64,000 nucleotides of DNA, from contig NZ_LMOB01000001.1 in the NCBI RefSeq assembly GCF_001423185.1, positions 1,082,875 to 1,146,874 on the forward strand. Direction: 5' to 3'. Below, piece after piece: positions 17,625-23,101 of the stretch. The translations under genes and the position numbers were made by a program. A model generated the notes under the pieces. That model saw only the letters and a list, made by a program, of their open reading frames with translations. It searched no databases and was not told where the DNA came from. The first letter of the stretch is position 1; every line of letters begins with the position of its first letter. The DNA is from Plantibacter sp. Leaf314. Its GTDB lineage: Bacteria; Actinomycetota; Actinomycetes; Actinomycetales; Microbacteriaceae.

Positions 17625-17630
17625 TAGAAT
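17625..17630 (+). promoter_or_regulatory. -10 box of fthC (TAGAAT)
   Basis: TAGAAT ends seven bases before ATG 17638. An ATG at 17629 overlaps the box and is therefore unlikely to be used. Confidence 0.65.
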
Positions 17631-17637
17631 GGGACCC

Positions 17638-18237
17638 ATGACGAGCCCCGCAGAGCACGAGAAACGAGCGCTCCGCGCCGAGCTCCGCGAGCGGCGTGAG
17701 CTGCTCACCTCGCTCGAGAAGGAGCGGTCGACGACCGGGCTGACCGACAACCTCAGAGCCCTCGTCTCCCGACTCGGAGCGACCTCCCTGGCCTGCTACC
17801 TCGCCTCACCGAGCGAACCGGACACGCGTCCGTTCCTCCAGTGGGCCCAGGAGGCCGGCATCCGCATCCTCTTCCCCGTCACCCGCACCGACGGACTCCT
17901 CGACTGGACGATCGGCGAGGACGGCATCGAGACGGTCGGCTTCGCCGGCACGCCTGAGGTCGTCGGCACCACGCTCGGTCCCATCGCCATCAACAACGTC
18001 GATCTGATCCTCGTGCCGGCGGCGGCCGTCGACGGCAGTGGCATGCGGATGGGCTGGGGTCGCGGCTACTTCGACAAGACGCTCGGTTCGATGGAGCGCT
18101 GCCCACCCGTCTACGCGGTCCTCTACGACACCGAGATCCTCGACGAGGTCCCGAGCGAGATCCACGACGAGCCCGTCGGCGGCGCGGTCACCCCGAGCCG
18201 CATCATCGACTTCGACCAGGTCCGACCGCGCCGCTGA
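17638..18237 (+). CDS. fthC: 5-formyltetrahydrofolate cyclo-ligase
   Basis: A 199-residue enzyme that converts 5-formyl-THF to 5,10-methenyl-THF using ATP, returning folate to one-carbon metabolism. Signatures are the N-terminal KRALRAELRERR helix and, near the C terminus, LILVPAAAVDGSGMRMGWGRGYFDK, the conserved substrate/ATP loop. ATG 17638 is chosen over 17629 because of the TAGAAT box. The fmdB-type gene follows 32 bases later and mscL after that, an order also found in other actinobacteria. Confidence 0.95.
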   Translation: MTSPAEHEKRALRAELRERRELLTSLEKERSTTGLTDNLRALVSRLGATSLACYLASPSEPDTRPFLQWAQEAGIRILFPVTRTDGLLDWTIGEDGIETVGFAGTPEVVGTTLGPIAINNVDLILVPAAAVDGSGMRMGWGRGYFDKTLGSMERCPPVYAVLYDTEILDEVPSEIHDEPVGGAVTPSRIIDFDQVRPRR

Positions 18238-18269: not shown

Positions 18270-18596
18270 GTGCCCACCTACGCGTACCGCTGCACCGAGT
18301 GCGGCAATGCCTTCGACATCCAGCAGGCGTTCACCGACGACTCGCTCACCGAGTGCCCGGCCTGCTCCGGCAAGCTGCGGAAGCTCTTCAGCGCGGTCGG
18401 CGTGACCTTCAACGGGTCCGGCTTCTACCGCACGGACTCCCGCGCCGGTGCCGGCAAGGGGTCGAGTTCCATCCCCGCGTCCTCGGGCAGCTCGGAGAGC
18501 TCGTCGAAGTCCTCCTCGTCCGACGCCAAGGGCTCCTCCGGTGCGTCCTCGTCGTCGAGCCCGGCTCCCGCGTCGACTGGGAGCAGCTCGTCCTGA
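18270..18596 (+). CDS. FmdB-family zinc-ribbon protein with Ser-rich tail
   Basis: A 108-residue protein. Residues 1-42 are the FmdB regulatory domain: PTYAYRCTECGNAFD and TECPACSG supply two CxxC knuckles for zinc. Residues 50-108 are almost all Ser, Gly, Ala, Lys and Pro and look disordered. The function of these small proteins is not settled. The GTG start has an AGGAGACC ribosome site. It lies in the fthC-fmdB-mscL row. Confidence 0.9.
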   Translation: MPTYAYRCTECGNAFDIQQAFTDDSLTECPACSGKLRKLFSAVGVTFNGSGFYRTDSRAGAGKGSSSIPASSGSSESSSKSSSSDAKGSSGASSSSSPAPASTGSSSS

Positions 18597-18647: not shown

Positions 18648-19094
18648 ATGCTCAAAGGTTTCAAGGAGTTCATCCTCCGAGGCAACGTGATCGACCTGGC
18701 CGTGGCCGTCGTGATCGGGGCTGCGTTCACCGCGATCGTCAACTCGCTCGTCGAGAACATCTTCAACCCGCTGCTCGGCGCGCTCTTCAAGGCGGAGAGC
18801 CTGAAGGACGCCTTCATCGTCAAGATCCCGACGCTCGACGGGCAGACGGCCGACTTGCAGTTCGGCGCCTTCCTCGGTGCCGCGATCCAGTTCGTGCTCA
18901 TCGCAGCCGTCGTCTACTTCGTCATCGTGCTGCCGATGAACCACTTCAAGCGCGTCACGACCAAGCCGACGATCGCGGACGAAGCGGCGGCTCCGAGCGA
19001 GTTGTCCCTGCTCACCGAGATCCGCGACGTCCTGAAGACCGGCACGAGCGCACCCCTGCCGCCCGCACGCGACGACACGACCGACGGCCGCTAG
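18648..19094 (+). CDS. mscL: large-conductance mechanosensitive channel
   Basis: A 148-residue MscL, the pressure valve that opens near membrane-lytic tension. N-terminal MLKGFKEFILRGNVIDLAVA and VVIGAAFTAIVNSLVENI match the S1 helix and TM1 pore helix. TM2 is FVLIAAVVYFVIVLPMN, followed by a charged C-terminal helix. A GGGAG ribosome site precedes ATG 18648. It follows fmdB after 51 bases and probably shares its transcript. Confidence 0.97.
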   Translation: MLKGFKEFILRGNVIDLAVAVVIGAAFTAIVNSLVENIFNPLLGALFKAESLKDAFIVKIPTLDGQTADLQFGAFLGAAIQFVLIAAVVYFVIVLPMNHFKRVTTKPTIADEAAAPSELSLLTEIRDVLKTGTSAPLPPARDDTTDGR

Positions 19095-19131: not shown

Positions 19132-19347
19132 TCACCAGTGGGGCGGGACGTTGCGTTGCAGCTCGGCGTCGTTGCCACCGCCGCCGGCGGGTTTCGCCGG
19201 ACCGCCCCAGGCCTCGTCGGTGTCCTCGGTGGCCTTCACCGGGCCGGCCGGGAGCTGCGGCGCCGGATCCGTCCCGGGAGCGCCGGGACGGATCGCCCGC
19301 CTCGACCCTCGCGGGCGGACGATTCGCGGCTCCTGATCGTCCTGCAT
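19132..19347 (-). CDS. small conserved protein ending in PPHW
   Basis: A 71-residue basic/Pro-rich protein of unknown function that starts MQDDQEPRIVRPRG and ends NDAELQRNVPPHW. Similar tails ending in PPHW occur in short actinobacterial proteins. Its ATG lies 16 bases after the stop of the helicase-nuclease gene on the same strand, so the two are likely co-transcribed and perhaps co-translated. No domain is recognised. Confidence 0.65.
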   Translation of the reverse strand: MQDDQEPRIVRPRGSRRAIRPGAPGTDPAPQLPAGPVKATEDTDEAWGGPAKPAGGGGNDAELQRNVPPHW

Positions 19348-19363
19348 GATCAGCGTCCGATCA

Positions 19364-22300
19364 TCAGTGGCGTGGGACCTGCACGGCGATCGGCGCGGTG
19401 TCGAGGTGTTCGGTCGTCGTGAGCCCGAGCACGCCGGCGACGCGCTGGGCGACCGCCTCCGCGTCGGCGAACAGGTCGAAACTGTGCACGCGGACGTAGT
19501 GCCAACCGAGACGGCGGAGGACGTCGGGGCGGAGCCGCAACGACTCACGAAGGCTCGCGTCACCGAGTTCCTCGTCGCACTCGACGACGACGGCCCGGCC
19601 ACCCCATGAGGCGACGAGGGCGAGCTTGCCGCGGTAACCCATGTCGACCCGCATCCCGAGCGTCTCCAGACGCGTGGCGAGGTCGACGAGCATCGGCTCG
19701 GCCTCGTGCGTCGCCTGGTCCTCGGAGGCACGGCGGGACGTGTCCGTGAGGATGCGGGCGAGCGCGAGGATGCCGTGCTGGATCCGGTTCTGATCGAGGT
19801 CCTCAGGACGCACGCAGGAGACGATCACCATGGACCGTCGGGCGCGCGTCATCCCGACCGCGAGCAACCGGTCGCCACCGGGCTGGCCCAGCGCACCGAA
19901 GTCCGACAGGACGCGACCGTGCGGCGTCAGTCCGTATCCGATCGAGAAGATGACCCGATCGCGGCTCTCGGCCACGGACTGCTCGAGCGTCAGGACGGTG
20001 AACGGTTCCGCGCGCTCGCGGAGGAGGAAGTCGGAGAGGTCGGCACGACGCGCGAAGGCGGCGAGGACGGCCTGCTGGACGCGCACCGCGTGCTTGTCGC
20101 TCGCCGTGACCACCATGAGCGACTCGCGCGGACGGTTCGACGCGTGCTCGAGGACGAGTTCGACGACCCGTTCGACCTCGACGTCGACGCTCTCGACGGC
20201 GCCGGTGACGGGGTCGGGCATGCCGAGTCCACCGGGCACGTAGTCGAGGCTCAGGCTGCCGTGCCCCAGGAACGAGCCCGCCCACGGGAGGGAGTCGATC
20301 TGGCCGCCGTAGAAGCGCTCGTTGACGAGCTCGGCGAGGTCCTCGCCGCCGGCGCGGTAGGACCGCGTCAGCATGAGGGTCGGGAGGACGGAGCTCAGCT
20401 GCTCCAGCGCGGATTCGCGGTGCAACTCGGCGAGGTCGGCGTGCGGCTCCGACGTCGCCTCCTGATCCGTCAGGCGGATCTCGAACGGGGACGGGCTCTG
20501 CGTGACCGGGTCGCCGAACGCGACGACCTGACGAGCGCGGCGGATGGCGTCCACGTTCTCGGCGAGCAGGGTGGCCCCGGCGTCGACGAGGAAGACGGCG
20601 TCGAAGGACGCGCTCTCGGGGATCCGCGGCACCTCGTACGGCGACACGAGCCAGACCGGCGCGAGGACGCGTGAGAGCGTGGGAGCCGCCTGCTCGAGCT
20701 CGGCGGCTCGGAGCGGTCGGTCGCGCTTCAGGAGCGACCGGAGGGCCATGCCCTCGGTCGCGTGGTCGACGAGGCCGATCTTCCAGGTGTCGGCGAGCAG
20801 CGAGGCGAGCAGCTGACCGGAGGCGGAGGCGTGCGCTTCGTCCACGAGTCGGAAGTCGGACTCGAGGCGCTCGACGACACTCGTGTTCGCACCGAGCAGA
20901 CCGCGGTCCTCCGTGAGGACGAGTTCGAGCAAGGACTGCCACCAGGCGAGTTCGAGCTCGTCGGCCAGGCGCGTCCGCGGCACGTGCCGCTGGGACAGGT
21001 CGATGATGAGTTCGCCGAGCCCCTGCTCACGCAGACCCGCGAGGATCGCGGTGCGCTCCTGGAGGTTGTGCAGCACCTCGGATTCGGCGGCGAGCTCGGA
21101 GATCGTCCGGACGAGGCTCGGGATGGCGAGGCGTCCGAGGCGGTCCGGGGTGTCGGCGATGCCGAGCGGCTGGTCGACGAGCTCGAGCTTCCCCGCGACC
21201 ATGGTGTACGTCTGCTCGACGTCCGCGATGCCGAGCGGCACCTCCGGGGGCGCGCCGGTCGTCACGTAGCGCTGCCAGAGGGTGCGCTGCTGCTGGATCC
21301 TGCGGAGCGCGGCGTTCATGTCCGGCACGTGCGCGCCGGGTCGCAGGTACTCCTTGGCGAGCGCCTTGAGACGACGACGGCTGGCCGAGGACATGGCCGT
21401 CGAGTCCTTCCGTGGGCTCGTCGCGACGATGAGGTCGGCGAGCGAACGGTCGAAGACGTCGGGCTGGAAGCGGTCGAGCGTCTCGCGGATGTCGGCGAGG
21501 AGTCGGAGGTAGATGCCGAGTTCGTCGATCGACTCGAAGGGACGCATCTGCGTCTGGCCGATGAGTCCGTAGGCGCGCTCGAGCAGCTGCGGCAGATCCT
21601 TGCGGTGCAGACGCTTGGCGAGCTCGTGGGTCTCCTGCGCCTCGGCGGTCGTGTCGAACGAGGCGCCGTACCACGGCGAGTCGCCAGGACCGTATCGGAA
21701 CTCACCGAGGGCGGCTGCGCCTTCGAGCGCCTCGGCCGCGCGAGAACGACCGGCGGCGAGCCCCACGAGCGTCTGGCGGTCGAGGCGGACGAGGGTTCCG
21801 GGCGGGTTCGGCAGCTTGGAGAGCTTGGAGAGCGCCTCGAGGGCGTCGATGACGGAGACCCGGAGGTCCGGGTCCTTCGCCTGCAGCGAGGTGCGGTAGT
21901 CGATGAGGACCCGACGCAACCGCACGAGGGCGTCGTCGACCTCCCCCACCTGCGGCGGGATCGCGCGCTCGTTCCGCGTGATCGCCTGGATCAGGTCGCG
22001 GCGGAGGGTCGACGGCGACGCGCACAGGCCGGGAAGTCCGACCTTCGTCAGCCGGTGGCGGATGCCCTCGAGGGTGGAGCGGCGAGGGCTCACCACGAGG
22101 ACGCGCTTGTGCTGGGACGCGAGCACGCCGATGGCGTTCACGATCGTCTGGGTGCCGCCGGTGCCCGGGAGCGTGGTGACGACGAGCGAGTTGCCGGCGC
22201 CGATCTGCGCGATGACGTTCTCCTGCTCCACGTCCGCGTCGAGCAGCAGGGTGTCGGTCGACGGCGGGCGGTCGTCCTGTCCGGGCGCGTCCACCGGGGT

Positions 22301-23101
22301 GAAGCTGCTGCGAACGAGACCGACGGCGCCCTCGTCGCCGGCGACGGCGTCGAGGATCGGGTGGTCGAGCTTGGCGGCGTCGTCCAGCAGCGAGTGCCCG
22401 ACCGCGGCGAAGGACGAGACGAGCAACCGGGGCTGGACCGTGAACCATTCGAGCCCTGCGGCGAGCGAGCGGAGGCGGTCGATCACGGGCTGCGGCTTGA
22501 AGACGCCGCCGGACTCGCTCAGGGCGACGAACTCGTCCGGGTCGAGGACGATGCCGAACTGCTCACGGAGCGCACGGACGAGCTCAGGGTTCGCCGTCGT
22601 GGTGCCGCGGAGTTTGACCTCGAAGTCGCGGCCGTATCGACGGATGGCGAGCGGCCGCAGGAGGACCGGGGCGCTGAAGTCCTCACCCTGGTGCGTCCAC
22701 TGGGCCAGCCCGACGGCGAGGTGCACGGCGTCGATGCCGCGGACGGTCGCAAGCTCGATGCCCTTGGTGGTGATGCGGTCGGCGGCACGCTTCGCTCCGC
22801 GGAGGGCGATCTCGTCGCGGATGAGGTTCGACAACAGCGTCGACTTCCCCGAGATGAACTGCGGCAGGCCGCCGGGGTGGGTGGAACTCAGTTCGACCCG
22901 GGTCGTCGGAGCATCGACGAAGTGCAGCAGGGGCGAGGGTCCGCCGACCGTGCTGAGCTGCTGACGCCACGCGTTCAGCGCCGTGTCGACCACGCCCGCC
23001 GATGCCGCGACGGGACCCTCGCGGAGTTGCGACTCCGCTGCTTCCCGTTCGACTCCGGACGTCACGTCGCCGTCATCCCGTCTCTTCTCTAGCCGCCACA
23101 C
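19364..23101 (-). CDS. SF1 helicase-like protein with degenerate ATPase motifs and C-terminal nuclease-like domain
   Basis: A 1245-residue protein with a DUF4011-like N-terminal part (about 35-180), two RecA-like halves (about 280-390 and 805-1105) around a helical insertion, and a C-terminal domain (about 1135-1225) of the MTES_1575/Vsr-like nuclease type. The P-loop reads PGTGGTQT (312-319), with Gly316 where Lys is required. Walker B reads VFLVDAGA, with Ala841 in place of Glu. Motif III (AFGDPVTQ) and the arginine-rich motif VI (VGMTRARRS) are kept. The nuclease-like core shows VVVECDEE. The frame is intact. GTG 23101 is chosen from TATGGT ending six bases upstream; GTG 23065 is possible. 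Function unknown. Confidence 0.85.
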   Translation of the reverse strand: MWRLEKRRDDGDVTSGVEREAAESQLREGPVAASAGVVDTALNAWRQQLSTVGGPSPLLHFVDAPTTRVELSSTHPGGLPQFISGKSTLLSNLIRDEIALRGAKRAADRITTKGIELATVRGIDAVHLAVGLAQWTHQGEDFSAPVLLRPLAIRRYGRDFEVKLRGTTTANPELVRALREQFGIVLDPDEFVALSESGGVFKPQPVIDRLRSLAAGLEWFTVQPRLLVSSFAAVGHSLLDDAAKLDHPILDAVAGDEGAVGLVRSSFTPVDAPGQDDRPPSTDTLLLDADVEQENVIAQIGAGNSLVVTTLPGTGGTQTIVNAIGVLASQHKRVLVVSPRRSTLEGIRHRLTKVGLPGLCASPSTLRRDLIQAITRNERAIPPQVGEVDDALVRLRRVLIDYRTSLQAKDPDLRVSVIDALEALSKLSKLPNPPGTLVRLDRQTLVGLAAGRSRAAEALEGAAALGEFRYGPGDSPWYGASFDTTAEAQETHELAKRLHRKDLPQLLERAYGLIGQTQMRPFESIDELGIYLRLLADIRETLDRFQPDVFDRSLADLIVATSPRKDSTAMSSASRRRLKALAKEYLRPGAHVPDMNAALRRIQQQRTLWQRYVTTGAPPEVPLGIADVEQTYTMVAGKLELVDQPLGIADTPDRLGRLAIPSLVRTISELAAESEVLHNLQERTAILAGLREQGLGELIIDLSQRHVPRTRLADELELAWWQSLLELVLTEDRGLLGANTSVVERLESDFRLVDEAHASASGQLLASLLADTWKIGLVDHATEGMALRSLLKRDRPLRAAELEQAAPTLSRVLAPVWLVSPYEVPRIPESASFDAVFLVDAGATLLAENVDAIRRARQVVAFGDPVTQSPSPFEIRLTDQEATSEPHADLAELHRESALEQLSSVLPTLMLTRSYRAGGEDLAELVNERFYGGQIDSLPWAGSFLGHGSLSLDYVPGGLGMPDPVTGAVESVDVEVERVVELVLEHASNRPRESLMVVTASDKHAVRVQQAVLAAFARRADLSDFLLRERAEPFTVLTLEQSVAESRDRVIFSIGYGLTPHGRVLSDFGALGQPGGDRLLAVGMTRARRSMVIVSCVRPEDLDQNRIQHGILALARILTDTSRRASEDQATHEAEPMLVDLATRLETLGMRVDMGYRGKLALVASWGGRAVVVECDEELGDASLRESLRLRPDVLRRLGWHYVRVHSFDLFADAEAVAQRVAGVLGLTTTEHLDTAPIAVQVPRH

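Follow-up and report, generated by a model that had tools for sequence, protein, structure and literature searches.

A putative pseudo-helicase-nuclease of Plantibacter and other Microbacteriaceae, its conserved mscL locus and its PPHW peptide

Superfamily 1 (SF1) helicase-nucleases of the DUF4011 type are represented among the named anti-phage profiles by PDC-S37, ProA and Hhe, and MTES_1575 is described as a larger fusion of HEPN, helicase and Vsr nuclease (PMC3710099). Proteins of SF1 fold without the enzymatic motifs are described as well: RecC and AddB have lost helicase motifs and read DNA (PMC4824097), and in RecC a lost nuclease domain is reused as a DNA hoop (PMC1185551). The gene analyzed here lies in a 64,000-nucleotide stretch of Plantibacter sp. 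Leaf314 (genome of 3.96 Mb in 3 contigs), referred to as the window, at 19364..23101 on the minus strand (read from 23101 to 19364). Starting with GTG in a conserved [V/M]WR start region, it encodes a protein of 1245 residues that lacks the P-loop Lys, the Walker B Asp, the motif III Gln and the nuclease Asp. We assume, with a probability of about 60%, that the product is a domesticated pseudo-helicase-nuclease, i.e. a non-hydrolyzing, nucleic-acid-binding scaffold or sensor that works with a small peptide, termed PPHW.

The protein resembles the DUF4011-type helicase-nucleases over the helicase and the MTES_1575 domains, whereas it differs from them in its lost catalytic residues, in being a core gene at a fixed locus, in its pairing with the PPHW peptide and in scores far below the curated cut-offs. 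It reached 289.3 bits with the NCBIfam profile ProA (cut-off 1500), 137.5 bits with Hhe (cut-off 2000) and 307 bits with PDC-S37 of PADLOC, which gives no cut-off, while two intact syntenic orthologs of family f18, introduced below, scored 807-816 and 830-835 bits with ProA/PDC-S37. From the predicted structure, a full SF1B fold like that of Ighmbp2, Dna2 and Upf1 is expected; tandem RecA-like domains were recognized, and the top structural matches of the model were Dna2 and Ighmbp2 in their nucleic-acid-bound forms. No solved structure was matched by sequence search. Ighmbp2, Dna2, Upf1, Sen1 and Aquarius are active ATPases, and the present protein differs from these SF1B members by an identity of 13-17%, a large insertion and an unlike N-terminal region. 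The combination of an SF1-type fold (here predicted), lost ATPase motifs and a lost nuclease site is shared with the RecC/AddB type. AddB, however, is described as UvrD-like (PMC4824097), while the protein considered here belongs to the SF1B/Upf1-like type, carries a Vsr-like domain and has no known active partner. The eukaryotic pseudohelicase Utp25 (PMC9539457), a precedent for a structural role, likewise combines a conserved helicase fold with dispensable motifs as member of a large assembly, but it is of the DEAD-box type and belongs to ribosome biogenesis, and the description consulted mentions neither a nuclease domain nor a partner peptide. A description of the present helicase family was not found by the literature searches.

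Catalytic motifs and their state in Microbacteriaceae

The frame is uninterrupted on the minus strand from 19364 to 23101, whereas the plus strand contains stops in the same register. Accordingly, the intact 1245-residue protein reported in the first-pass annotation was recovered at exactly this place, with the strand corrected to minus. The best protein match was found in Plantibacter flavus (98%), and homologs carry the database annotation 'AAA family ATPase', a similar name or 'hypothetical'.

All motif coordinates given in the following refer to the minus strand. The P-loop P312-T319 (22145..22168) reads PGTGGTQT within LPGTGGTQT, and G316 stands where DUF4011-type relatives carry Lys, as had been noticed before. 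For Walker B, the spacing to the 'GD' of motif III was 26 residues without gaps in 12/12 sequences checked, comprising dead and intact versions. Based on this spacing, the remnant V839-A843 (VDAGA, 20573..20587) aligns with DEASQ such that V839 replaces the Asp and D840 the Glu, while A841 is the ordinary Ala of DEAS; the earlier reading of an Ala in place of the Glu was shifted by one residue. Motif III, which had been considered to be preserved, retains its Gly-Asp (G863-Q868, GDPVTQ, 20498..20515) but shows T867 at the Gln position, compared to Q in 14/14 intact sequences. The motif V region T1038-D1048 (19958..19990) is altered as well: the QGDERD of intact relatives is gone, and the Gln of column 1043, present in 14/14 intact sequences, is a Val. 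In summary, neither GK[S/T] in Walker A nor Asp-Glu in Walker B nor the Gln of motif III is present, whereas the arginines of motif VI are. This TRARR motif (T1085-R1089, 19835..19849) corresponds to the arginine-rich motif of the first-pass annotation, and both R1086 and R1088 were Arg in 94/104 aligned rows, one row being an open reading frame on the wrong strand. The Q-motif glutamine Q293 (22223..22225) is retained in 56/68 sequences from decayed loci, including all 21 Microbacteriaceae of that set.

The C-terminal residues 1143-1222 (19436..19675) resemble the Vsr-like MTES_1575 nuclease, with a match to PF18741 (REase_MTES_1575) of 29.8 bits (E 6e-7) that lies below the gathering threshold of 38.2 and marks a recognizable but divergent relative. 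With the catalytic residues deduced from intact relatives, the Asp of their IDLAV motif corresponds to A1161 (19619-19621); E1174 and D1176 are retained, and the Gly of E-x-D-G is gone. The Asp was missing in 103/103 aligned Microbacteriaceae sequences, and on these grounds an active nuclease was rejected for this family; the nuclease module proposed earlier is not supported as a working one. Judged from these residues, both ATP hydrolysis and DNA cleavage by the 1245-residue protein seem to be lost.

The same state was observed throughout the family. PGTGGTQT occurred in 121/121 aligned sequences, namely the query and its 120 best hits among 1978 homologs. Furthermore, 105 Microbacteriaceae sequences were taken from genomes, representing a part of the 247 genes of the family; 103 of them were aligned, while L243 (too short) and L242 (wrong-strand open reading frame) were read separately, both as PGTGGTQT. 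Four of the 105 came from Plantibacter strains, and a scan of genome contigs with the single protein yielded these 4 Plantibacter loci only. The P-loop was PGTGGTQT in 85 sequences, and in the others the Lys position was occupied by Tyr (7), Ala (6), Ser (3) or Arg, Leu, Val and Thr (1 each). A Lys was found in 0/105 and the Walker B Asp in 0/103 aligned sequences. Consequently, the normal GKS/T and DE motifs in close relatives, named by the first-pass annotation as the observation that would contradict it, did not appear; its statement that relatives normally read PGTGKSQT holds true for off-locus homologs and for orthologs of two other families, but for none of the 105 Microbacteriaceae orthologs. 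Among 102 Microbacteriaceae sequences (without L242 and the incomplete L069), residues 311-319, i.e. the P-loop, showed the lowest variability of all 9-residue windows in the protein. Motif IV was found at percentile 0.8, while the Walker B remnant (24) and the nuclease site (39 and 62) showed ordinary values. In 14 sequences of family f6, the P-loop lay at percentile 3.

The gene was matched in 247/249 Microbacteriaceae genomes at E <= 1e-30, covering 85/85 genera, with a single match in 237/247; some of these matches are contig-end fragments (G124, G169, G061). The two genomes without match have a completeness of 82% and 94%, and the gene persists in genomes of 0.9-1.5 Mb. The ratio of nonsynonymous to synonymous substitution rates (dN/dS) was calculated with our own Nei-Gojobori script for frames taken from stop to stop, which therefore include some upstream sequence, and amounted to 0.019-0.074 in 15/17 Microbacteriaceae pairs. 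For the annotated frame, two Plantibacter comparisons gave 0.010 and 0.024, the lowest values of nine genes including those of MscL, 5-formyltetrahydrofolate (5-FTHF) cyclo-ligase and GalU. Taken together, the absence of Lys from all 105 sequences and the mostly strong purifying selection support, as far as sequences can tell, the earlier proposal that the protein is kept while not hydrolyzing ATP in the ordinary way. A role as an accessory or defence gene is not supported, as a core gene at one locus is found.

Conserved locus and loss of catalytic residues in other families

The gene faces three plus-strand genes of the window: mscL (18648..19094), its convergent neighbor and the marker of a conserved locus, and, beyond it, an FmdB-type zinc-ribbon gene (18270..18596) and the 5-FTHF cyclo-ligase gene (17629..18237). 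In 37/40 flank stretches from 15 families, the gene adjoins MscL, FmdB and/or 5-FTHF ligase, the exceptions being the three stretches of f12; these flanks, as well as 36 genera, were chosen by hand for spread over families and genera and not at random. The orientation was convergent except for MscL in L173. Genes shared on the downstream side comprise mscL, FmdB, SAF-like, folate, GalU and GNAT genes, while on the upstream side no neighbor was common to more than 14/41 loci, and a conserved upstream operon partner was not kept as a candidate. In f12 (L159-L161), the decayed gene is no longer found at the mscL locus, with the PPHW module still nearby in L161. From 19 further stretches, 11 lie at the mscL locus, including 5/5 of Jiangellaceae (f38), and 8 contain homologs located elsewhere, which the tree places outside the clade of the locus. 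Searches at E <= 1e-20 matched 248/297 genomes of the order and 75/394 of the class.

Intact orthologs at the same locus were detected in f5 (one genome checked) and in part of f18, the family that contains Phycicoccus and is named Intrasporangiaceae in the NCBI taxonomy and Dermatophilaceae in some record names. They show GPPGTGKSQT, FDEASQ, GDxxQLPP, QGDERD, RRLNVAxTR and the nuclease D and E-x-D-G. The decayed P-loops differ by family: besides PGTGGTQT, PGTGQTQT (f6), PGTGATQ (f7) and PGTGRTQT (f38) were observed, and f3, f4, f9 and f14 have no P-loop whatsoever. In L113 of the crown, a Lys stands by chance in the P-loop Lys column without a P-loop.

Among the 68 decayed-locus sequences, 58 lack GK[S/T], Asp-Glu and the nuclease D/E, in 9 the loss is confined to the ATPase residues, and one (L123) retains GKT and DE but not the motif III Gln or the complete nuclease pair, of which one residue is lost. 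Since the 9 sequences (f6, f7 and f16) keep both D and E of the nuclease, the losses of nuclease and ATPase were separate events. On a FastTree phylogeny of 82 sequences, GK[S/T] was lost in five separate clades, three of them within f18; the node joining f38 to the rest has a support of 0.43. An IQ-TREE phylogeny of 40 taxa agrees in outline, with f38 joining at 97, f5/f18 plus crown at 75 and f5 with f18 at 60, and L108 is nested among intact f18 sequences with 95/97. Because the deep nodes are only moderately supported, at least three losses are considered safe, while the best tree suggests about five independent ones. In f18, intact and decayed syntenic versions occur in related genomes (L108/L165, L123/L166, L124/L167, L190) and form a natural inactivation series.

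As a further observation, L194 (contig C3, 52000-70500) reveals an intact larger DUF4011 helicase in the genome to which the window belongs, with a frame of 2234 residues around C3:58569-61895 and the motifs PGTGKSQT, FDEASQ, GDSKQMP, QGDERD and NVAVTRAR, which is perhaps of the HEPN/MTES_1575 type. A possible parallel to the fixed locus, judged by its description, is the P. aeruginosa defence hotspot cDHS1, for which a DUF4011 gene is described as a conserved core flank (PMC10250203).

The PPHW peptide

The short linked gene mentioned in the first-pass annotation was confirmed. It starts 16 nt past the helicase stop (19132..19347, minus strand) and encodes 71 residues with the C-terminal end NDAELQRNVPPHW. 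Its residues T40-W71 (19135..19230, minus strand) constitute the PPHW module, which in relatives is either encoded separately or attached as a fusion to the C-terminal end of the helicase. The consensus of the last ~40 residues is roughly E-D-x-D-x-x-W-G ... N-D-x-R-L-x-x-x-x-P-P-H-W and recurs beside the helicases of this locus. In 122 distinct locus homologs (duplicates removed), the module was fused to the helicase C-terminus in 24, located within 1.5 kb in 88 and missing in 10, while 11 further locus homologs with less than 600 nt were left unscored. None of the 8 off-locus homologs carried it. Three Jiangellaceae loci counted as negative (L182, L183 and L186) carry the module about 4 kb away, and in L037 (counted as negative) and L127 (unscored) it lies nearby on the other strand.

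Fusions were observed in f1 (Microbacteriaceae), f6, f10, f14, f19 and two intact f18 orthologs, the latter indicating that the tie between helicase and PPHW precedes the decay in f18. A profile of the module matched 264/394 class genomes at E <= 0.01, mostly with one match, and in five genomes without helicase match (L203, L209, L210, L212 and L222) the module adjoins MscL or FmdB. Since it thus occurs throughout the class, also in genomes without the helicase, the peptide probably predates its tie to the helicase. No Pfam match was obtained for the 31 members scanned. In the predicted structure of a fused member, the tail appears flexible (predicted local distance difference test, pLDDT, of 51-59) with one short helix, and for this reason a docked position of the tail on the helicase was not kept as a candidate.

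Possible functions of the putatively inactivated protein

The lost catalytic residues, the fixation in Microbacteriaceae, the purifying selection, the conserved locus and the repeated fusion of the peptide are features of the sequences themselves, whereas the role as a non-hydrolyzing scaffold or sensor rather than an enzyme is probable. Several observations weigh against it. The retention of Q293, D864 and TRARR means that weak nucleotide turnover may be left in the protein. In 11-residue windows, the P-loop (0.37) is equalled by RDRVIFSIGYG of motif V (0.36), and as other families lose the P-loop glycines altogether, the nucleotide pocket is not the common function. Two Microbacteriaceae pairs showed dN/dS values of 0.23 and 0.25, 11 pairs of other families ranged from 0.045 to 0.49 with maxima in f7 (0.36) and f3 (0.49), and the intact f18 pairs gave 0.13-0.26. 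Finally, in 10/122 locus homologs the 0.7-1.5 kb scored contained no PPHW module, and the fused tail, modeled with low confidence, does not dock on the helicase body, so that a direct contact between the two finds no support in the model.

Owing to the RecC/AddB precedent, a DNA-reading subunit appears to be the strongest specific rival, although we regard it as rather unlikely. The protein would then be the DNA-scanning arm of a DNA-end-processing or replication-linked complex of larger size, with the PPHW peptide connecting it to an active helicase or nuclease whose gene lies elsewhere. The nucleic-acid-bound Dna2 and Ighmbp2 as top structural matches and the conserved motifs IV and VI fit this explanation. 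Within the locus, to which the search was directed and not to the remaining genome, no active partner gene is conserved (upstream sharing <=14/41), and the retention in genomes of 0.9-1.5 Mb also speaks against it. Less probable is a role against phages, as a decoy or sensor that arose from defence helicases of the PDC-S37/ProA/Hhe type and detects phage nucleic acid or a phage inhibitor without acting on it. While the nearest named profiles and the higher scores of the intact orthologs point in this direction, the ProA and Hhe scores lie far under the family cut-offs, and defence genes are usually patchy, in contrast to a core gene under strong purifying selection at a fixed locus, kept down to 0.9 Mb.

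A slightly lower probability still is given to an unconventional ATPase, in which a Lys from elsewhere, e.g. K309 in 'VKTLPGTGG', substitutes for the P-loop Lys. K309 is present in 99/121 sequences of the query alignment, and the highly conserved P-loop as well as the retained Q293, D864 and TRARR would be in line with it, but Plantibacter itself has T309, and the losses of the Walker B Asp, the motif III Gln and motif V coincide. That a single strain carries a local mutation, a pseudogene or a sequencing error, an explanation for which nothing speaks beyond the oddity of the motif, is refuted for practical purposes by the recurrence of the motif in 121/121 sequences, the absence of Lys in the family, the open frame and the low dN/dS in Plantibacter.

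Returning to the non-hydrolyzing scaffold or sensor, the following course of events is considered likely. An SF1B DUF4011-type helicase with a C-terminal Vsr-like nuclease would have been fixed beside mscL in an ancestor of Micrococcales, probably of Jiangellales too, next to a small gene for the PPHW peptide. Catalysis would then have been lost several times, with fold, locus and peptide retained. Nucleic acid or a partner may be bound by both RecA-like domains together with the inactive nuclease domain. The P-loop of Microbacteriaceae, reshaped and under high constraint, may still hold a phosphate ligand or a fixed conformation, and the flexible PPHW tail could be a docking motif recruiting another factor. 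More tentatively, and with clearly less confidence, a core Micrococcales complex can be imagined, in which an SF1B helicase-nuclease, independently inactivated in several lineages, reads nucleic-acid structure and controls a conserved actinobacterial process via the PPHW peptide, with PGTGGTQT as a non-hydrolytic nucleotide or phosphate sensor in Microbacteriaceae.

Inactive helicase subunits of the RecC/AddB type have shown in what way DNA ends are read. In the present case, an enzyme-sized protein persists at one locus in most of a bacterial order after the loss of its ATPase and, mostly, its nuclease, and the gene is conserved to a degree resembling essential genes. The PPHW peptide occurs throughout the class despite having no Pfam family, and the sister lineages with intact orthologs offer a natural experiment on an enzyme becoming a scaffold.

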